A stretch of 41,221 bases of DNA, from IMG/VR virus record IMGVR_UViG_3300009085_000011, positions 1-41,221 of that record. One strand, 5' to 3'. Of the stretch, positions 17,841 through 29,579 are shown in pieces. The first letter of the stretch is position 1, and every line of letters starts with the position of its first letter. The notes under the pieces are model-generated. The model did not search any database. It worked only from the letters and a program-made list of their open reading frames with translations, and had not been told where the DNA came from. The position numbers and the translations under genes are program-made. Source of the stretch: a virus.

Positions 17841-17934
17841 GGGCTGATGGACGAGTGGCTAAAGTCTAGTCTTGCTGGACAGGTAACCATCTGCAAGACT
17901 GTATTGAGCGCAGGTTCAAATCCTGCTCAGCCCA
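17841..17934 (+). tRNA. tRNA-like gene with an expanded anticodon arm, anticodon not assignable
   Basis: Clear tRNA parts are present: a 7-bp acceptor stem (GGGCTGA 17841-17847 with TCAGCCC 17927-17933), discriminator A, a T-arm GCAGG-TTCAAAT-CCTGC (17910-17926), and a D-arm GAC-GAGTGGCTAAA-GTC (17850-17866) like those of Ser/Leu/Tyr tRNAs. The anticodon arm is abnormal: a perfect 8-bp stem (17868-17875 with 17893-17900) closes a 17-nt loop instead of 5 bp and 7 nt. CCA is not encoded. An alternative fold (GTCTA/TGGAC with loop GTCTTGC, anticodon CUU) would destroy the D-stem. It may be a tRNA mimic that caps the upstream RNA, or an unusual tRNA. Confidence 0.6.
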
Positions 17935-17970
17935 CTGTATAGATTGACATTTTGATACAAGGAGTAAATT

Positions 17971-18875: not shown

Positions 18876-19673
18876 ATGATTATCATAGCAGACATCAACG
18901 AAAAGGCAACCAATCCTAAAGTTATTGCAAGTCTTAAGAAGTTGTTTCCAAGCCTCAAATTGCAACAATTAAAATTCGGTGATCTTAATGTTATCCTGGA
19001 TAATGGCGATCTTCTTGCGATTGAACGTAAAGAGGCTCATGATTTTCTTGGTTCAATTGGAGACGGCAGGGTATTCCGCCAGGTTGAAGCAATGAGCAAT
19101 GGCGCAAAGTGGTGCGCTATCATAATTCAGGGTGTTATATCTTTTGATGAAAACGATATGACAGAGATCAATGGAAAAGTAACAAACTGGAGAGGCGCGT
19201 CAGTGCGTGGAGCTTTATTAGCAATTCAGTGGTCAGGATGCCCAATTATCTTCACCGCTTCCTTTCCTTATGATTATGCAGAGATCGTTGCGGATATCAT
19301 AAAGTTTTGTTCAAAGCCCGATGTTCACCACCAGTCTCTTGGCAGGAAGCGCATTGTTACATTCCCTCCAATAAGTTTGCCAGAAGAGATCGTTGCAGGC
19401 TTTCCCGGGATTGGATTGAAGAGAGCAAGGTCATTGATAAACTTTGCCAAAGATATGGACGATAAAAGCAAAGAGCCATCTTTGGCAAAGGCTTTGTGTT
19501 GGGTTACATATCTTCCCAGACTTGACTACAAATCACGTCCAGAGGGCTGGGGAGATAAGACAGTTACAAACTTCCGCTTAGCTCTTGGGTTGTCAGATAA
19601 TGAACATTTGATAATTGAAGAGGAAAGGTCAAAAAATGGAACTTTCAAAAAGTCAAAAAGATCGAGTGGGTAA
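18876..19673 (+). CDS. ERCC4/XPF-type nuclease with helix-hairpin-helix
   Basis: A protein of 265 residues. The nuclease core shows GD (35-36) and the diagnostic ERKxxxD (E50-R51-K52...D56), as in XPF/Mus81/Hef endonucleases. A helix-hairpin-helix DNA-binding motif lies at 171-190 (EEIVAGFPGIGLKRARSL). Phage proteins of this type cut branched DNA or 3' flaps in recombination and replication. Here it lies with a Sak4-like ATPase and helicases, which supports a repair/recombination role. The basic tail (KKSKRSSG) overlaps the next gene by 38 nt. Confidence 0.88.
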   Translation: MIIIADINEKATNPKVIASLKKLFPSLKLQQLKFGDLNVILDNGDLLAIERKEAHDFLGSIGDGRVFRQVEAMSNGAKWCAIIIQGVISFDENDMTEINGKVTNWRGASVRGALLAIQWSGCPIIFTASFPYDYAEIVADIIKFCSKPDVHHQSLGRKRIVTFPPISLPEEIVAGFPGIGLKRARSLINFAKDMDDKSKEPSLAKALCWVTYLPRLDYKSRPEGWGDKTVTNFRLALGLSDNEHLIIEEERSKNGTFKKSKRSSG

Positions 19674-20078: not shown

Positions 20079-21194
20079 ATGATATTCACAAAAACACGTG
20101 GCGTAATTGAAATCATCGGTGAGCATGATGTGGGGAAAACAATTGCTGCATTGCAAGTTGTCAATCCGTATAAAAACACAGCCTTTGTTGATGACGATAT
20201 CAAAGGCGATGGAACAATGCGCCAGATGAAGGAAGGTGGAATTGAGGTCAGGGATTATGTTGATCTAGCTGCAATGCGCATAAGACTTGGCAGGACACCG
20301 ACAGCTACCGATCTTATGCATAAAGTTGTTGACCCAACAGTTGAGTATCTTCTTAGCGGGAAAAGATATGACGTGATCATTTGGGATACGTGGCGGATTG
20401 TGTACGAAGCAGCCCGTGGGCATGTTGATCGGAATCAATCGAAGTACAGCAACGTTGTTACTTTCCGTGGAAATTCAATAATCATTCAAGGTCTTGTGAG
20501 CAAGGTCGCACGAATGATTGAACGGGAATACATTGAACGTTTGCGCAATGCCTGCGATCTTCTTGTGCTTACGCATCACGTCAAAGATTATTACCTCAAC
20601 AATGTGGTTGTTGGCAAAATACCTGAAAGCTCCAAAACACTTAATGAAGTTTGCAATATGCGTGTGTGGCTTAGGCGCAACCCAAGAAGTAAAGTGCCTA
20701 TTATTCTCTTCCTAAAGAGACCGTCTATGCCAAGTATTGCCAAGACTGGTGCTCCACGTTTTGTCAATATCGTACCTTTGAAGATCACTCCAACAGAAAA
20801 AGATGAAAGTATTTGGGGTGCAATCAGCCGATATGAGCAAAAGCCGATTGAAAACCGTCAGCCCACTGCAGATGAGACACCAACAAAAGAAGAGTTTGCT
20901 GCAATCTCTGGCACTATGACGGAAGAGCAAAAGCAATACGCAAAAGAAATGCTTAGACTTCAGGCAGAGACAACCGAAGATTTCCTTGGCGATCTTTCAA
21001 AGGGTATGAAGCAAACCGAAGTTGATCACCCAGCGAATGGCACGCAACTTCTTACAATGTCAGCCAATCGTTACAGTCTTGATAGTGATGAGGTTTTAAC
21101 TCTTCTTGATCTTGACGATTTGGGTGATGTATTTTCACTTACTGGAAAAGCTCTTGAGCAGGCATGGAAGACAATAAAAGAACATGGAGAATAA
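20079..21194 (+). CDS. Sak4-like RecA-fold ATPase (single-strand annealing/recombination)
   Basis: A protein of 371 residues. Walker A is GEHDVGKT (14-21), Walker B is the strand VIIWD ending at D103, followed by a LLVLTHHVKD strand typical of RecA-like AAA_24/Sak4 recombinases. The C-terminal 120 residues are helical and variable (TMTEEQKQYAKEML...). Sak4 proteins promote single-strand annealing with a partner SSB. The neighbouring ERCC4 nuclease and helicase complete a recombination/replication group. Confidence 0.8.
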   Translation: MIFTKTRGVIEIIGEHDVGKTIAALQVVNPYKNTAFVDDDIKGDGTMRQMKEGGIEVRDYVDLAAMRIRLGRTPTATDLMHKVVDPTVEYLLSGKRYDVIIWDTWRIVYEAARGHVDRNQSKYSNVVTFRGNSIIIQGLVSKVARMIEREYIERLRNACDLLVLTHHVKDYYLNNVVVGKIPESSKTLNEVCNMRVWLRRNPRSKVPIILFLKRPSMPSIAKTGAPRFVNIVPLKITPTEKDESIWGAISRYEQKPIENRQPTADETPTKEEFAAISGTMTEEQKQYAKEMLRLQAETTEDFLGDLSKGMKQTEVDHPANGTQLLTMSANRYSLDSDEVLTLLDLDDLGDVFSLTGKALEQAWKTIKEHGE

Positions 21195-23293: not shown

Positions 23294-23467
23294 GTGCATA
23301 TTATTATTGGATTGGTGCCCGGGGTTTCTGAGTATCGTATTTTGGAATACCCTGAAATGATCAAAGCCTTTGGTGACGATCTTGAGCTTGTTGCAGATTG
23401 GTGCGATGAAATGAATGAAAAAGGTTGTCCAGTTGAATTTACGATAGCCTTTCAGGAGGTTGAGTGA
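23294..23467 (+). CDS. Small alpha/beta protein (57 residues), GTG start
   Basis: GTG 23294 has AGGAGG at 23283-23288 and lies 1 nt past the upstream stop, which fits better than upstream in-frame ATGs inside the previous gene. A strand (HIIIGLVPG) precedes helices and a last strand (VEFTIAFQEVE), a ferredoxin-like pattern. The stop overlaps the amidotransferase start. Function unknown. Confidence 0.55.
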   Translation: MHIIIGLVPGVSEYRILEYPEMIKAFGDDLELVADWCDEMNEKGCPVEFTIAFQEVE

Positions 23468-24114
23468 TGTGCGGTGTAATCGGTTGCTTTCCAACAAAAA
23501 GAATAATGACTGATTGGCATATCGAGAAGTTTTGCGAGCTTCTTACTCAAAGCAGAATAAGAGGAATGCATGCATACGGTATTGCTGCCCAGTTTCCGTC
23601 TGGGCGTTGGAGCTTCCTTAAATCTCTTGAGATTGCCGAAGTTATATCATGGGCATTTGAGATTTCAAAAACTGCAACAGCCATGATAGGTCACACTCGT
23701 TATGATACAAGCGGTAATTGGAGAGTAGCAGCAAACAATCAACCCATTACTATTGGGCAAGACTTCCTTGTGTTTAACGGTGTTATTAGAATGTCAACAA
23801 AAGCCGAATATGAGGAAGAGTTTGGCACAAGATTTACAACGGAAAATGATGGAGAGATTTTGCTGTGGCTTCTTGGCAAGAGCGAAAAGGGAAAGGCAAA
23901 GAAGCTTCTTGACGATGAGCAGGTATCATATGCAGGCATTCAAGTAGTTAATGGTGATGTGTCAATATACCGCAATGAACGCAGACCTTTAACACTTTTG
24001 CGCAAAAGAGGATTGTGGGTTGCAAGCACCATTGATATTTTAGCCAGAACGTTTGGAGCAGAGTTAAATCCTCAATCAATCGAGCCGGGAATATTCCACC
24101 ATGTCAAGACTTGA
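23467..24114 (+). CDS. Class II glutamine amidotransferase domain protein
   Basis: A protein of 215 residues starting MCGVIG. Cys2 becomes the N-terminal nucleophile of an Ntn-type glutaminase after Met removal, so ATG 23467 is the true start rather than the GTG at 23464. RGMHAYGIA matches the RGxDxxG block, GHTRY (75-79) with TSG and the NNQP segment is the glutamine-site signature, and FNGVI and TENDGEIL correspond to HNG and the sDtE motif. Stand-alone proteins of this size hydrolyse glutamine to release ammonia for a partner synthase. The partner is probably one of the co-transcribed modification enzymes; the next gene overlaps by 14 nt. Confidence 0.85.
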   Translation: MCGVIGCFPTKRIMTDWHIEKFCELLTQSRIRGMHAYGIAAQFPSGRWSFLKSLEIAEVISWAFEISKTATAMIGHTRYDTSGNWRVAANNQPITIGQDFLVFNGVIRMSTKAEYEEEFGTRFTTENDGEILLWLLGKSEKGKAKKLLDDEQVSYAGIQVVNGDVSIYRNERRPLTLLRKRGLWVASTIDILARTFGAELNPQSIEPGIFHHVKT

Positions 24115-25048
24115 TGAATACATTCAATACCATGCAATTTCAGAGCAGATCGGAGATATTGACCCGAGTTATGCAATGCTCAGATATGTTTGTGATAGAT
24201 TTGAGTTGAACATTGAACAACGTTTTTGGTTATCTTATTTGTACAGTACCTGCTACAATGCTTCAACCGTCTTTTACATCTATAATGAATTTCCAGATTA
24301 TCTGGGCGTTGACGTTGGCAGGCTTCAAAGATGGTGGAATGCCAATAGAGATCGGCTTGATTTTCAAACTGATTGCCGTTGGGTACGGTCACGCAATCAA
24401 TTTGTTCAAATGTTTATAGAGTACAGAATGTTGTGCGGTAGAAGTCAGGAAGAGACTTATCATAATTTGGTTTTCAGAAAGTCTCACCCATACCGATCTT
24501 GTTATTCTTACTTTGAACAAATACATAACTTTGGCAGGTTTAAGCTTTTCCTGCTTCTTGAGGCAGTTCATGTTGTAACGGGCTTCGACATTGAGCCTGA
24601 TGAACTACCGCTTGAACAAGCTCAATCCAGTTGCAACGGATTGTGTTATGCTCTCAATCGTGACGATCTTCTGCGTGGAAATGATTACGGTGACAAACCT
24701 CTTCTGGCAGGTGATTATGAATATCTCTATATAGAATTTGAAAAACTTCTAAAGTTAATGCGTTCAAGATTTCCAGACAAACGCATTGATTATTGGAATG
24801 TTGAAACGACATTGTGCGCATACAAGAAATGGCATAGAGGAAAGCGATACCCAGGTTATTATCTGACAAGGCAGGCAAAAGAGATCATGAGCATGCGTCA
24901 CAATGTGCCTGAGGGAGTTTGTTGGGAAGTGCTTTGGGATTATCGCAAGGAATGTCTTGACCATAAATACCTGTACGAGTTTACAGGACGTGAAGACCCG
25001 GGAGTATTTGGAAATGATACCAGACAAATCAGCATCTTTGAAATCTAA
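24101..25048 (+). CDS. aGPT-PPlase/HMUDK-helical family protein (amino acid:DNA transferase-like)
   Basis: A protein of 315 residues. The diagnostic parts are an IHNFGRFKLFLLLEA helix (F144-G145-R146-F147), GLCYALNRDD, the W232-VETTLCAYKK helix and K248-R249-Y250-PGYYLTRQ. I recognise these as the all-helical family predicted as alpha-glutamyl/putrescinyl-thymine pyrophosphorylases and shown in thymidine-hypermodifying phages to be amino acid:DNA transferases. Such enzymes replace the pyrophosphate of activated 5-hydroxymethyl-dU in DNA with an amino acid. A matching kinase lies two genes downstream. It overlaps the GNAT gene by 35 nt. The amino acid used cannot be read from sequence. Confidence 0.8.
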   Translation: MSRLDEYIQYHAISEQIGDIDPSYAMLRYVCDRFELNIEQRFWLSYLYSTCYNASTVFYIYNEFPDYLGVDVGRLQRWWNANRDRLDFQTDCRWVRSRNQFVQMFIEYRMLCGRSQEETYHNLVFRKSHPYRSCYSYFEQIHNFGRFKLFLLLEAVHVVTGFDIEPDELPLEQAQSSCNGLCYALNRDDLLRGNDYGDKPLLAGDYEYLYIEFEKLLKLMRSRFPDKRIDYWNVETTLCAYKKWHRGKRYPGYYLTRQAKEIMSMRHNVPEGVCWEVLWDYRKECLDHKYLYEFTGREDPGVFGNDTRQISIFEI

Positions 25049-25595
25049 GTTTGAATTCGGTTTTGTTCGGCAGGGAGAATTTTTCCAAATCCCAATTGAA
25101 GAACTATCCAGGAAAATTCCAGCCGTAAAAGATTTTGCATATACTTGGAGGTTTTGGCAAAATTGGGAAAAGTATCCACCTGTTGTTGCTTATTCTGGCA
25201 AGATCGTCTACGGTTTTCTTGCCATTACAAACTCCATCAGTGGTTATCTCAATCTTTATTACATTGCAACAAACCCAGAGCATAGAGGGCAGGGAATTGC
25301 AAAAGACATGTTTGACTTCTATCTTCAAAATCTTCCTCCAATGCGTTACAGAAGAATGAAGATACGCACCACAAAAGATGCAGACGGTGAAAAGTTTTTC
25401 AGGTCTTTTGGCTTCAAACCTTTTCTTTTGGTTGAGACAAAGCCAAAACATTTTGAGTATTTCTGGAATGTTGATTTGGGATACTCGAGATCGGTCAAGG
25501 AGGTAATTGAAAGGCAAAAGGATAAGACACAGCCAATTCCATTGGGTGAAATTGAAAAGATCATAAAAAAGTATCCAGATGCGAGGTTGCTATGA
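25014..25595 (+). CDS. GNAT-family N-acyltransferase
   Basis: A protein of 193 residues from ATG 25014 (GGGAG at 25000-25004). Motif A is a beta strand (LNLYYIATNPEH) plus the acyl-CoA pyrophosphate loop H90-RGQGIA, followed by a helix (KDMFDFYLQNL) and a late GFKPF strand, as in GNAT enzymes. In thymidine-hypermodification clusters GNATs acylate the amine of the modified base, and the placement between the transferase and the DNA kinase supports that role. ATGA overlap with the kinase gene. Confidence 0.85.
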   Translation: MIPDKSASLKSKFEFGFVRQGEFFQIPIEELSRKIPAVKDFAYTWRFWQNWEKYPPVVAYSGKIVYGFLAITNSISGYLNLYYIATNPEHRGQGIAKDMFDFYLQNLPPMRYRRMKIRTTKDADGEKFFRSFGFKPFLLVETKPKHFEYFWNVDLGYSRSVKEVIERQKDKTQPIPLGEIEKIIKKYPDARLL

Positions 25596-26149
25596 AAGTC
25601 ATATTGATCGGTGGCTATCCTGGAGTGGGGAAATCTTTTGTTGTTAAAAAGTTAATCGAGCTTATCAGATCAAAGATAGGCGGAGATGATTTTGAAGAGA
25701 TGTCAGAATACAGTATGCCATATATGATCAAGCGCATGAAAGATAAAGATCTGATCATAATGGGCTCTTACAAGCACAACGAAAAGTTTCCTGGCACAGA
25801 TCGGTTTTCAATGGGAGTTCAACCATACTTTGAGCAATTCCTAAAGAAGCATAAAGACGACAATGTTGTAATCTTGCTTGAAGGTGATCGGCTTTTCAAT
25901 GGCAAAACCATTGGACACCTTTGGGCTCAAAGGATACCGTATAACATTGTTATAATAAGAGCCGATGAAAAGATTACAAAAGAGAGGAGGGAGAGCAGGT
26001 CATTTCAAAATGAAACCTGGCGCAAAGGCAGGAAAACAAAAGTTGACAATATTGCAAAGCAGACACCTTTTGCGATTTCTATAAACAATGACACAGAAGA
26101 GCAGGCAGAGGTAGCTGCTAATCGTATCCTTCAATTGATAAAGAGATAA
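25592..26149 (+). CDS. 5-hydroxymethyl-dU DNA kinase-like P-loop enzyme
   Basis: A protein of 185 residues. Walker A is GGYPGVGKS (7-15). IIMGSY followed by FPGTDRFSMGVQP (GTDR 68-71) and VVILLEGDRLFN (EGDR 97-100) is the signature set of the phage kinases that phosphorylate 5-hydroxymethyl-dU in DNA to give the activated pyrophosphate ester. ERRESR (about 131-136) fits a lid. The product would be the substrate of the transferase encoded at 24101. Coupled to the GNAT gene by ATGA; a 33-nt gap with AAGGAG leads to the radical SAM gene. Confidence 0.85.
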   Translation: MKVILIGGYPGVGKSFVVKKLIELIRSKIGGDDFEEMSEYSMPYMIKRMKDKDLIIMGSYKHNEKFPGTDRFSMGVQPYFEQFLKKHKDDNVVILLEGDRLFNGKTIGHLWAQRIPYNIVIIRADEKITKERRESRSFQNETWRKGRKTKVDNIAKQTPFAISINNDTEEQAEVAANRILQLIKR

Positions 26150-26182
26150 CACAAGATTTTATTTACAATAAGGAGTATTGAA

Positions 26183-28285
26183 ATGGAATTAACAACAGGT
26201 AATTACGGCTCTCCAAGATGGTCATATGAAATTCTGGATTGTGCAATGCCAATGACATTTGACACGTACTCGAATTGTGCGCATCAGTGTTTGTATTGTT
26301 TCAGCTTCTTTCAACGGGCTGTTGGAACAAGCGCAGAAGATTATTTGTCACATAAGGTGCGTTCTGTTGACGTTGAACGTGTCAAACGTATGTTTACCAA
26401 TCCTGAGAAGTACGGTGGGCAATTCAAGAATTACATCAAACGCAGAATGACATTGCAATGGGGCGGGCTTTCTGACGGATTTGATTGGTACGAAAAGAAG
26501 TTTGGAAAATCTCTTGAGCTTCTTACATTCTTCAACGAGATTGATTATCCACTCTCAATCAGCACGAAGGGTGTTTGGTACGTCTATGATGATGAATACC
26601 GCAAGCAACTCAGAGATCGTAAAAACTTGCATTTCAAATACTCAATCATAACAGACATTGAAGAGCATGTAAAAGCAATCGAGCCTGGAGTGCCATCAGC
26701 CAGAGATCGTTTTGCAGCACTGAAAGAGCTTAACAAATTGGGAGTTGCAGCAACAACACTCCGCTTCCGTCCGTTTATTATTGGTACATCCGATCTTTGC
26801 ATTGAAAGTATGATGAAGAGCGCAAGCGATGCTGGATGCTATTCAATAACAACTGAATTGCTTTGTTGGGAGAGCCGTGCCAGTGATACCAGTAGAGATC
26901 GTTTGGATCGGCTTTCAAAGGTCTTGGGTTATGACGTTTGGAAGTTCTACAATGAGCAGAGCGCAAGATCGTCTGGGCTTTTGCGTTTGAATTACGATCT
27001 GAAACGTCCATACATTCTTGAAATGAAAGAAGCAGCAGAAAAGTATGGCTTGAAATTCTTTGTGTCTGATGCGCATCATAAAGAAGAGAGCTATCATGCT
27101 GGATGCTGTGGGCTTCCTGAGACTGGAGCTTTATCAAACGTCAATCGTGGACAATATGCTCATGCAATAAAGATTGCAAAAGAAAAAGGAATTGTGAAGT
27201 GGTCTGATATCAAAGAGGAAGCAAAAGCCTTGCTTGAAGACATTCCACTTGTTCGGGCTGAGGGCTTTAATATTGGTACGACAGGTGAAGCAACAAAGCG
27301 AACATATCAAAGCGTTTTTGATTTCATGCATGACATTTGGAACAATCCAACCTCATGGCAATCGCCTGCCCGTTATTTTGGTGGTGCTCTTGTACCAGGT
27401 CAGCCTGACGAGAATGGTGACATTGTCTACCTTTACAACAAACCGTTTATTGAATTGAATGTAAGAGTTGAGAGCGTAAACGATCTTGCAAAAGAGTTGA
27501 GGATGACTGGTGCACCTAATGCTCAAAGATACAACGAGATGACTGCAGACGGCACTGATTATGGTTACACTGCTTATCCAATTTACATTTTCAGTAGGAA
27601 GAGATCGGCAGATGCCTCAACTCCGCTTGTGTTAAGATCGGCACGATTGAATTACCATTTTGTTGTGAGCAAAGACGATCTTGATGCATATGCTGATCAA
27701 TTCCCAGAAGCCGACATAATTGTTGTGCCTCAAAGAAACAGTATACGTGCTGCACGTCAATTCATTCTTGAGCAAGCCCGTGAGGAAGGATACCCGTACA
27801 TTTGGATGCTTGATGATGATATTGACAGCGTAAAGCAAAATGGAAAGCCTGTTTCAATGCGTGCTTTGCTTTCAAGCCTTGAACGTTGGGTTGAAGATTA
27901 CAGTAATGTTGCTCTTCTTGGAGTGAATGGAAATCGTGCGAAGTTTGTTGTCAATCAAATTCCAGCAGGCTTGCTTCTTGTCAACACAATGACTGGAATT
28001 TCATTCACGGGCTTTGAATACAAAGAAGTTGAAGCATTTGCCCTTCAGCATTTCAAAAAGGAAAATTGGGTTACCGTCTGCAACGGTGAGTTTACGATTT
28101 CCTTCAAGGAAATCCAAGGCGGTGGAGCAGCGCATATCATAACAGCCGAATTGCAAGATCACCAGTATTCAAAGAAGCTTTTTGAAAGATACAGAGAATA
28201 CTTTAATGAGGCTAAGGAATTTCAGCCCAATACTATCAGAAACAGTATCAGATCAAGGCACGTAGAAGCCATGATCAAGGAGTAA
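26183..28285 (+). CDS. Radical SAM - TAGT/GREB1-type glycosyltransferase fusion
   Basis: A protein of 700 residues. C32-xxx-C36-xx-C39 followed by Phe is the radical SAM iron-sulfur motif. Residues about 15-300 carry a barrel with QWGGLSDGFD, ISTKGVW and LRFRPFIIG strands, resembling SPL/Rv2578c-like enzymes. Residues about 465-690 form a second domain: YPIYIFSRKR, YHFVVSKDDLDAY, IIVVPQRNSIRAARQFI and WMLDDDIDSV (D544-D546). The SKGR-like start, the GI..ARNFI-like helix and the LDDDI metal motif match TET/JBP-associated glycosyltransferases (GREB1-like GT-A fold). I infer a bifunctional base-modification enzyme. The linker 300-465 has CCGLP at the end of the first part. A dedicated AAGGAG site precedes it. 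Confidence 0.82.
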   Translation: MELTTGNYGSPRWSYEILDCAMPMTFDTYSNCAHQCLYCFSFFQRAVGTSAEDYLSHKVRSVDVERVKRMFTNPEKYGGQFKNYIKRRMTLQWGGLSDGFDWYEKKFGKSLELLTFFNEIDYPLSISTKGVWYVYDDEYRKQLRDRKNLHFKYSIITDIEEHVKAIEPGVPSARDRFAALKELNKLGVAATTLRFRPFIIGTSDLCIESMMKSASDAGCYSITTELLCWESRASDTSRDRLDRLSKVLGYDVWKFYNEQSARSSGLLRLNYDLKRPYILEMKEAAEKYGLKFFVSDAHHKEESYHAGCCGLPETGALSNVNRGQYAHAIKIAKEKGIVKWSDIKEEAKALLEDIPLVRAEGFNIGTTGEATKRTYQSVFDFMHDIWNNPTSWQSPARYFGGALVPGQPDENGDIVYLYNKPFIELNVRVESVNDLAKELRMTGAPNAQRYNEMTADGTDYGYTAYPIYIFSRKRSADASTPLVLRSARLNYHFVVSKDDLDAYADQFPEADIIVVPQRNSIRAARQFILEQAREEGYPYIWMLDDDIDSVKQNGKPVSMRALLSSLERWVEDYSNVALLGVNGNRAKFVVNQIPAGLLLVNTMTGISFTGFEYKEVEAFALQHFKKENWVTVCNGEFTISFKEIQGGGAAHIITAELQDHQYSKKLFERYREYFNEAKEFQPNTIRNSIRSRHVEAMIKE

Positions 28286-28287
28286 AG

Positions 28288-28482
28288 ATGGCAGAGCGTA
28301 TTCAATACCAGGTAGACGTTTTATTGAGTTGTGGAAACATAATTTCAATAATCATTGAAAGCGTTTTAAAGAAGCCAAAGATTGGAGACAAGATCGTTTG
28401 TGCTTTTTGTCGCGCTGAAAGTGAAGTCATTAAAGTTGGCACACCATATCGCATTACAATAAAAGAGGAGGTATCCCAATGA
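28288..28482 (+). CDS. Small protein with a CxxC motif
   Basis: A protein of 64 residues; AAGGAG overlaps the end of the radical SAM gene. Beta-rich, with CAFC near residue 38. ATGA-type overlap with the clamp gene. May be a small clamp or modification partner; no family recognised. Confidence 0.6.
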   Translation: MAERIQYQVDVLLSCGNIISIIIESVLKKPKIGDKIVCAFCRAESEVIKVGTPYRITIKEEVSQ

Positions 28483-29579
28483 ATGCCGTAAAATCCGATC
28501 TACTCAGGGCTCTGCAAATTACGTCAAAAGCAGTTCACCCAAAACCAATCATACCGTTGTTCTCAAACATTCTGCTTGAAGTAAGCGGTGATACAGCGCA
28601 AATGTCCGCAACGAATTTTGAGATAAGTATCAGGGTAACTTTCCCCGTCAAAAAGTCTGGCAAATTTTCAACCTGCATTCCAGCCAAACTTATGACAGAC
28701 CTTATTTCAATGACCGCATCAAATGAAATAGGTCTTGAATTCAAATCTCAATCTAACGAGCTTGTTGTTAAAACCAAAAACAGCACAAACACTGTTAAAT
28801 GCATTCCATCAGACGATTTCCCCCAAACGCAAACGATCAACAAGCCAACTTTGAAAACAGATGCTGTTGCACTAAAGAAGAGTATTAGTCGTACAACCTT
28901 TTGTGCAAAATCAGGAGATGATCAAAGTGCCTTGGCTGGAGTGCAGATCAAACTTGAGGGCAATAAATTGATTTTGTTTGCAGTCGATGGCTTCCACCTC
29001 TCTTATGATGAAACAGAAATACCCAAAAAGAATAGGTACACCAAAGAAGCCGAAGCAATAATCAAAGCTTCAACATTGGATACCGTTGCGAAAATTCTTG
29101 ATGAAAGCGGGGATGTAGCAATTGAGATCACAGACAGGAATATCGTATTCAACTCTGAAAACATTATCATTGTTGTGCAACGTTTGGATGGCAATTTCCC
29201 TCCATATGAAAGGCTTCTTTCAGTTGTTGATGGTACGAATACATCAATAACCGTTCCAACTCTTGAAATGTTGCAGGCTTGCAAAGTTGTCGAGCTTTTC
29301 ACTGATGCAAACAAAGCCGATCTTACTACTTCTGGCGGAATGATTACCCAGTTGTCTTCCGTCTCAACAGAAAAAGGCAAAGGCAAGATGGAAATTGGCT
29401 CAGTCATAACTGGCAGCCCGATAACAATTCAACTCAATGTTCTGTATCTAAGACAATTCCTTGAGATCTGTGATGCAGATGATGCCGTGATTGATCTTAT
29501 CAGTGATAAAAAGCCTGTCTTGCTAACGATGAAAGACAATCCGCATTTCAAGCACATCATCATGCCAATTGCAACATGA
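28479..29579 (+). CDS. dnaN: DNA polymerase III beta sliding clamp homologue
   Basis: A protein of 366 residues, the full bacterial DnaN length with three clamp domains. Recognisable blocks are KPIIPLFSNILLEV and MSATNFEISIRV (domain 1), FCAKSGDDQSALAGVQIKL and AVDGFHLSYDE (domain 2), LDGNFPPYERLL, and a C-terminus ending KHIIMPIAT that corresponds to the YVIMP(M)RL tail. It forms a dimeric ring that tethers polymerase to DNA. No polymerase gene is present in the window, so it presumably recruits host Pol III and perhaps the phage modification enzymes, its immediate neighbours. Confidence 0.92.
   Translation: MNAVKSDLLRALQITSKAVHPKPIIPLFSNILLEVSGDTAQMSATNFEISIRVTFPVKKSGKFSTCIPAKLMTDLISMTASNEIGLEFKSQSNELVVKTKNSTNTVKCIPSDDFPQTQTINKPTLKTDAVALKKSISRTTFCAKSGDDQSALAGVQIKLEGNKLILFAVDGFHLSYDETEIPKKNRYTKEAEAIIKASTLDTVAKILDESGDVAIEITDRNIVFNSENIIIVVQRLDGNFPPYERLLSVVDGTNTSITVPTLEMLQACKVVELFTDANKADLTTSGGMITQLSSVSTEKGKGKMEIGSVITGSPITIQLNVLYLRQFLEICDADDAVIDLISDKKPVLLTMKDNPHFKHIIMPIAT

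Follow-up and report, generated by a model that had tools for sequence, protein, structure and literature searches.

The five-gene operon at positions 23464/23467-28285 of a 41,221-base viral sequence (IMG/VR virus record IMGVR_UViG_3300009085_000011, analysed over its whole length and called the window here) very probably modifies thymine in DNA. All five genes lie on the + strand and encode, in order, a glutamine amidotransferase (GAT), a protein of the amino acid:DNA transferase family (ADDT), a GNAT acyltransferase, a P-loop kinase (KIN) and a fusion of a radical SAM (rSAM) domain with a TAGT-family glycosyltransferase domain (Table 1). Our reading of the whole, to which we give a probability of roughly 0.55, is that of a post-replicative thymine-hypermodification operon in which the rSAM enzyme would serve as an anaerobic source of 5-hydroxymethyldeoxyuridine (5-hmdU), which is then used either by TAGT or by KIN, GAT, ADDT and GNAT. 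Taken as a whole this is thymidine hypermodification in a variant form; should the rSAM step prove true, its enzyme activity would be new.

Systems of the M6/ViI type draw their hydroxymethyl group from a thymidylate-synthase-like (TS) dUMP hydroxymethylase or from a TET/JBP enzyme, and neither source is present in the window: searches for thymidylate-synthase-like PF00303, TET/JBP PF12851, ThyX PF02511, the PF13640 oxygenase and a C5-methyltransferase found none of them there. Elsewhere, the neighbour in most GAT loci is a TET/JBP gene; in the window and a minority of loci it is rSAM. We collected 71 distinct GAT loci from IMG/VR scans with ADDT, GAT and rSAM (three of the loci came via the rSAM scan): 62 have TET only, six have rSAM only, none has both and three are truncated, one of these being a fragment of the window (Fisher p 5.9e-7 for the exclusion, not corrected for phylogeny). 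This census hardly depends on the source enzyme and is close to unbiased in that respect. The alignment scan for rSAM yielded 80 viral loci, and 50 long contigs (25-76 kb) were scored for rSAM, TET and TS: none of the 35 contigs with rSAM carries TET or TS, and the other 15 comprise 14 with TET and one (L159) with TS. L158, which was picked by its GAT and has no TET, proved to be rSAM-positive. In L159, found by the GAT scan and with ADDT present, a thymidylate-synthase family protein (G050:C1:31748-32233) stands instead of TET and rSAM.

The two enzymes also occupy the same slot, the order being GAT-ADDT-rSAM in L081 and GAT-ADDT-TET in L012 and L006 (in full, ParB-kinase-GAT-ADDT-TET in L012). 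The ADDT tree needs at least five TET/rSAM changes, and for the rSAM label well-supported branches impose at least two, so that the swap probably happened more than once. On balance it seems somewhat likelier that rSAM makes the hydroxymethyl group, replacing TET/JBP, than that it does something else. The preliminary description of this DNA, made from its letters alone, had centred the operon on 5-hmdU chemistry; it had overlooked both that an encoded 5-hmdU source is missing and that rSAM is a likely substitute.

The structure of the rSAM half of the 700-residue fusion is consistent with such a role. Radical_SAM is matched below cut-off in the window protein (7e-4), and a CX3CX2C motif lies at residues 32-39 (26276-26299). 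The AlphaFold2 (AF2) model, with a mean per-residue confidence (pLDDT) of 94, has spore photoproduct lyase (SPL) for all of its top six PDB matches (E 2e-8 to 5e-7), so that the predicted fold, like the cluster motif, is that of SPL. The phage family also keeps Tyr38, the equivalent of SPL Tyr97, which is the SAM-contact Tyr adjoining the third Cys, and the proposed substrate, thymine in DNA, is that of SPL. By sequence the likeness is fainter: Pfam SPL was matched weakly by one rSAM relative, and PDB sequence searches with the fusion and with the rSAM profile returned no match. In SPL (B. subtilis numbering throughout), the thymine methyl radical in DNA is quenched by a hydrogen from Cys141, and Tyr99 takes part in the hydrogen return; when Cys141 is missing, an outside species traps the radical (dithionite-derived SO2- in C141A), and either mutation, Y99F or C141A, should put an end to SAM regeneration (PMC3742179). 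It is here that the phage enzymes part from SPL, as they do in their operon context: the Tyr99 position is Phe (F40) in 90 of 90 phage rSAM sequences (among them 17 that only the other search pattern picked up and one, L158, that neither did), and a comparison at the level of sequence, rather than a structural superposition, finds no conserved Cys in the family at the SPL Cys141 distance (~+43). A hydroxylase would need both a lost hydrogen return and an available oxidant, and an rSAM enzyme without the C141/Y99 pair fits; the family has further invariant Cys20, Cys308 and Cys309 and a near-invariant Cys228, and one may speculate that these four hold a second cluster, able to accept an electron.

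The other half of the fusion matches PF20691 at residues 465-580 (4e-18; 66.5 bits against a cut-off of 27.5; 131 of 205 positions). The TET-associated glycosyltransferases belong to the same family, over cut-off, but here TAGT is fused or adjacent to rSAM in a genome without TET. Among 90 rSAM records (some of them duplicates), the partners are TAGT in 48, KIN and/or ADDT in 28 (three overlap) and ParB in 69, and all ten of the unlabelled stand-alone neighbours of rSAM tested in relatives proved to be PF20691 over cut-off. These partners support a hydroxymethyl product, because both TAGT and KIN/ADDT use a hydroxymethyl base in known systems. A literature search, which did not extend to Iyer 2013 and Lee 2022, returned no description of an rSAM/ParB/TAGT association. 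Other genes near rSAM include a second radical SAM protein, of SPASM type, at L055:4324-5235 and in 13 other rSAM loci (its gene end meets the start of the SPL-like rSAM gene in L055 and L056), and, at L066:2379-3873, EcbF-like phosphatase and cytidylyltransferase-like genes near rSAM/TAGT, which may provide nucleotide sugars for glycosylating the DNA.

The rSAM gene is present in eleven GTDB genomes, from Clostridia, Clostridiaceae, Oscillospiraceae, Selenomonadaceae, Prevotellaceae, Selenomonas ruminantium S137, an uncultured Firmicutes bacterium and one metagenome-assembled genome of the Bacteroidetes/Chlorobi group; nearly all of them fall in obligately anaerobic groups. Those cultured phages that are TET-type relatives have aerobic hosts (Mycobacterium, Microbacterium, Methylophilales, Rhodococcus), although cultivation favours phages of aerobes in any case. 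The terminase and portal of the window, a virus of gut type, are closest to those of phages of Blautia, Clostridioides and Faecalibacterium and of human faecal phages, and the host of the window phage is probably anaerobic and clostridial. TET/JBP needs oxygen, and base hydroxylation in DNA by phages of obligate anaerobes is not readily explained; if our reading is true, a swappable rSAM enzyme for the anaerobic writing of 5-hmdU in DNA would account for it and would extend the SPL branch of the radical SAM superfamily by a further reaction. The S. ruminantium S137 locus (L189, NZ_FNJQ01000002) has the order ParB-ParB-KIN-rSAM with no recognised ADDT or TAGT and, as a named strain, is a candidate laboratory model.

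GAT and ADDT form a conserved and widespread pair in uncultivated phages that is apparently undescribed. ADDT belongs to the ADDT/AADT family (Pfam PF18724, 9.5e-18, above cut-off); its AF2 model (pLDDT 92.6) has its best PDB matches in a glycinyltransferase (8z2m/8z2n), and its profile matches 25qc_A (E 2e-19) and 8z2m_A (E 1e-18). This glycinyltransferase, PUGT of PaMx11, acts on 5-phosphomethyldeoxyuridine (5-PmdU) and shares fold and family with the window ADDT at about 15% identity; unlike PUGT, the window ADDT is paired with a glutaminase. GAT passes the cut-off of GATase_6 (PF13522, 1.5e-8), matches PHROG 14519 at 4.9e-18 and has the hallmarks of a class II (N-terminal nucleophile, Ntn) amidotransferase, the glutaminase residues Cys2 (the nucleophile), Arg78, Asn104-Gly105 and Asp128 being invariant across 16 homologues; an AGGAGG box lies 7 nucleotides (nt) before the ATG at 23467, the start that places the catalytic Cys at position 2. 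Its best NCBIfam matches are PurF and GlmS, both ammonia-transferring. ADDT lies on the same strand in 70 of the 71 GAT loci (the remaining one is truncated) and immediately downstream in 51, mostly with a 13-14 nt overlap; a GNAT-type gene sits between the two in other loci, and GNAT is nearby in 32 of the 71, as it is in the window. PLP enzymes and M6-type rSAM enzymes, the sculptors of attached amino acids, are found in none of 68 GAT loci but in three of 16 ADDT loci scored as GAT-less (p 0.006), although three of those 16 loci (L019, L021 and L159) do carry a GAT overlooked by the open reading frame (ORF) picker. Among 50,697 GenBank phage records GAT had no tblastn match, and the ADDT relatives there, mainly in ViI-type Ackermannviridae, reach ~30% identity or less.

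Because the ADDTs of this clade almost always have an intact glutaminase as their partner, ammonia is the simplest donor to propose, and we regard the supply of ammonia to ADDT by GAT as an evenly balanced proposition; the nearby GNAT would acylate the resulting amine. The amino-acid-derived product predicted in the preliminary description is doubtful for the same reason. Its impression of an undescribed combination holds for GAT-ADDT as far as we can tell, but the pair is not peculiar to this phage. GAT could instead trim or amidate, for example by EgtC-like hydrolysis of a gamma-glutamyl amide installed by ADDT, which would be compatible with our reading of rSAM: stand-alone hydrolases of the class II amidotransferase fold exist (EgtC), and in part of the loci GNAT separates GAT from ADDT. 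We consider this unlikely, though far from negligible, in view of the invariant glutaminase residues, the PurF and GlmS matches and the presence of ADDT in every untruncated GAT locus.

The window KIN matches Ploopntkinase3 below cut-off (2.1e-4; the L003 homologue passes), HMUD2 below cut-off (0.056) and PHROG 800 at 5.5e-9. The hidden Markov model (HMM) of its family matches the kinases of Melnitz, Cr30, MementoMori and Magpie, and M6 gp54 weakly; the nearest relatives are P-loop kinases from phages of Caulobacter, Methylophilales and Microbacterium, several of these kinases being associated with TET. In PDB sequence searches KIN alone had no match and the family profile matched only generic P-loop proteins. 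PHROG 800 and the NCBI name would make KIN a terminase small subunit, an identification that we dropped, since M6 gp54 bears the same label within a hypermodification operon and Cr30 has such a kinase <5 kb from ADDT. The naming of hypermodification kinases in PHROG 800 as terminase small subunits is probably a misannotation, as is that of TET/JBP-type proteins (L006:7879-8655) in PHROG 6059 as queuine tRNA-ribosyltransferases. GNAT matches Acetyltransf_7 (PF13508) above cut-off (2.9e-9); in L003 its place between ADDT and KIN is occupied by a 446-residue protein with a weak sulfotransferase match (L003:7957-9297), and in L033 a dual-specificity phosphatase, which possibly strips base phosphates, lies between ADDT and the kinase (L033:1505-2050). 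Much of the preliminary description stands on these results: ORFs and family profiles agree with its five same-strand genes, the motifs GTDR, EGDRLFN, VETTLCAYKK and RYPGYY all lie within conserved blocks, and a thymidine-hypermodification operon with a kinase and ADDT core, extended by GAT and a sugar transferase, accords with PF18724 and with the fold and profile match to PUGT. Against Pfam, GAT, ADDT and TAGT exceed the cut-offs and the kinase falls below the HMUDK cut-off; the kinase has its nearest kin in the Caulobacter, Methylophilales and Microbacterium phages and is related to M6 gp54 only weakly.

ADDT likely binds the phage sliding clamp via its C-terminal tail, to judge from its sequence. 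The tail, predicted to be disordered (pLDDT <50), ends in RQISIFEI, and among the proteins of the window only QISIF fits the strict pattern Q[LI][SD][LI]F, whose background rate is 1.1e-5 per residue. The strict motif occurs in two of 79 ADDTs, those of the window and of L003 (C-terminus KQLSLF), and both phages have their own DnaN downstream of rSAM-TAGT. QISIF and QLSLF are pentapeptides of the bacterial clamp-binding type. L033 has a clamp in this same place, but its distant ADDT lacks the motif.

From the gene families, their conservation, mutual exclusion and synteny, and from fold similarity, we infer the following reactions and a modification of virion DNA. The SPL-like rSAM enzyme would abstract hydrogen from the 5-methyl group of thymines in DNA; with the hydrogen-return pair lost, the thymine-methyl radical would undergo oxidation and capture by water, so that 5-hmdU would form with no need of O2. 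The fused TAGT domain would glycosylate part of the 5-hmdU. KIN would phosphorylate 5-hmdU, and ADDT, probably held at the fork by its clamp motif acting on the phage DnaN, would swap the phosphate for ammonia freed from glutamine by GAT; the resulting 5-aminomethyl-dU would finally be acylated by GNAT. In the product, 5-hmdU, glycosyl-hmdU and (acyl)aminomethyl-dU are likely to occur side by side. From the GAT-ADDT pair one would predict a short path to aminomethyl-dU, and from the clamp motif a replication-coupled modification. That rSAM is an O2-independent thymine-methyl hydroxylase, that GAT-fed ADDT gives 5-aminomethyl-dU and that ADDT is clamp-tethered are, taken jointly, about as probable as not.

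Several points weigh against this reading. Any of the contigs may be incomplete, and an oxygenase that has diverged far enough may escape detection; the rSAM contigs were mostly discovered via rSAM itself; 17 of the 90 rSAM records have no recognised TAGT, KIN or ADDT; the L081 contig also carries ThyX; and GAT is missing beside some close relatives of ADDT, which leaves the ammonia donor less certain than the rSAM step. Hydroxylation by water is also rare among rSAM enzymes. The 5-hmdU might come, as in the classical pathway, from a dUMP hydroxymethylase or TET that escaped detection or lies off the contig, with rSAM tailoring the amino or sugar substituent late and ADDT attaching an amino acid. 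M6 employs an rSAM enzyme (the gp53 isomerase) for tailoring, its family and that of the window rSAM are distantly homologous (hhalign probability 98, 17% identity), and the window, as a linear record, may not be complete. We nevertheless think such a pathway rather improbable: no source was found in any of the 35 rSAM contigs, L158 (rSAM) and L159 (TS) fill the source gap exactly, and rSAM occurs with TAGT alone, KIN alone or neither, so that it is not tied to one downstream substrate. Moreover, the rSAM family HMM has no match to M6 gp53, and the M6-type rSAM co-occurs as a separate family in L061, L078, L079 and L115; in the last three the SPL-like rSAM lies beside it with a kinase and a transferase (and, in L078 and L079, a PLP enzyme) and no TS, which implies that the SPL-like rSAM stands in for the TS of M6 and differs from the M6 isomerase.

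If rSAM does attack the thymine methyl, the product used by KIN and TAGT could be other than 5-hmdU, such as an adduct or an aldehyde: the SPL-like fold and the lost hydrogen-return pair predict merely a persistent methyl radical, and that of SPL C141A is trapped by dithionite-derived SO2- (PMC3742179). This we hold to be improbable, given that TAGT, KIN and ADDT enzymes of these families otherwise operate together with TET/JBP or TS, where the product is hydroxymethyl and an equivalent product is simplest. It is more improbable still that the operon acts on cytosine, oxidising 5-methylcytosine to 5-hydroxymethylcytosine like the TET phages with a C5-methyltransferase, even though hydroxymethylcytosine is the substrate of TAGT family members in T6-like phages (PMC13390438): it is in thymidine pathways that the relatives of ADDT and of the kinase are found, and a C5-methyltransferase, lacking in the window, is found in only three of the 50 long contigs, so that the substrate is probably T and not phage-made 5-methylcytosine.

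The operon may be set beside two known kinds of system. Pseudomonas phage M6 (5-aminoethyl-dU) shares with it the AADT and kinase core and an rSAM gene, but M6 has the TS-like gp58 as its hydroxymethyl source, an rSAM of the other family and no GAT, and the window has no PLP enzyme. The actinophage Tonitrus uses TET/JBP as its hydroxymethyl source, in a ParB-TET/JBP-aGPT-PPlase2-5-hmU kinase module (PMC11955845), and Magpie has a module of the same type. The logic of these modules (oxidise T in DNA, phosphorylate, transfer) is that of the window, with homologous ADDT and kinase; the window differs in having an SPL-like rSAM for TET/JBP, in adding GAT, GNAT and TAGT and in its lack of ParB, for which a search of the window found none.

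Replication genes occupy the middle of the window, with tail and lysis genes to the left and terminase, portal and head genes to the right. We dropped a reading of the operon as a restriction or defence island, since structural phage genes flank it on both sides. GAT and ADDT overlap by 14 nt and GNAT and KIN by 4 nt, KIN and rSAM are 33 nt apart, and, with a GNAT start at 25014, the overlap of ADDT and GNAT comes to about 35 nt; the start listed at 24903 is merely that of the longest ORF. The operon genes co-occur repeatedly in many other viral contigs, and the arrangement is therefore not due to chance.

Table 1. Features of the hypermodification operon and the adjacent clamp gene in the window.
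Feature	Positions	Strand	Basis
GAT, stand-alone class II (Ntn) glutamine amidotransferase, 215 residues, nucleophile Cys2	23467..24114	+	PF13522, PHROG 14519
ADDT, amino acid:DNA transferase family, predicted to act on phosphorylated 5-hmdU	24101..25048	+	PF18724, AF2, profile
ADDT C-terminal putative clamp-binding motif QISIF, residues 309-313	25025..25039	+	motif scan
GNAT acyltransferase, start uncertain	25014..25595	+	PF13508 (Acetyltransf_7)
KIN, P-loop kinase, hydroxymethyl-base DNA kinase-like	25592..26149	+	Ploopntkinase3, PHROG 800
rSAM domain, residues 1-440, SPL-like	26183..27502	+	CX3CX2C, AF2 fold
TAGT-family glycosyltransferase domain, residues 465-700, fused to rSAM	27575..28285	+	PF20691, DDD motif
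Phage sliding clamp DnaN	28479..29579	+	three DNA_pol3_beta domains over cut-off

Promoter and terminator scans of the window gave a signal no higher than that of shuffled sequence. Further upstream, ARAGORN calls a tRNA-like gene of undetermined type at 17841-17935, with a four-base anticodon (tgct), and an ERCC4-type nuclease (18876-19673) and a P-loop ATPase (20079-21194) precede the operon in an order that is kept in L003.

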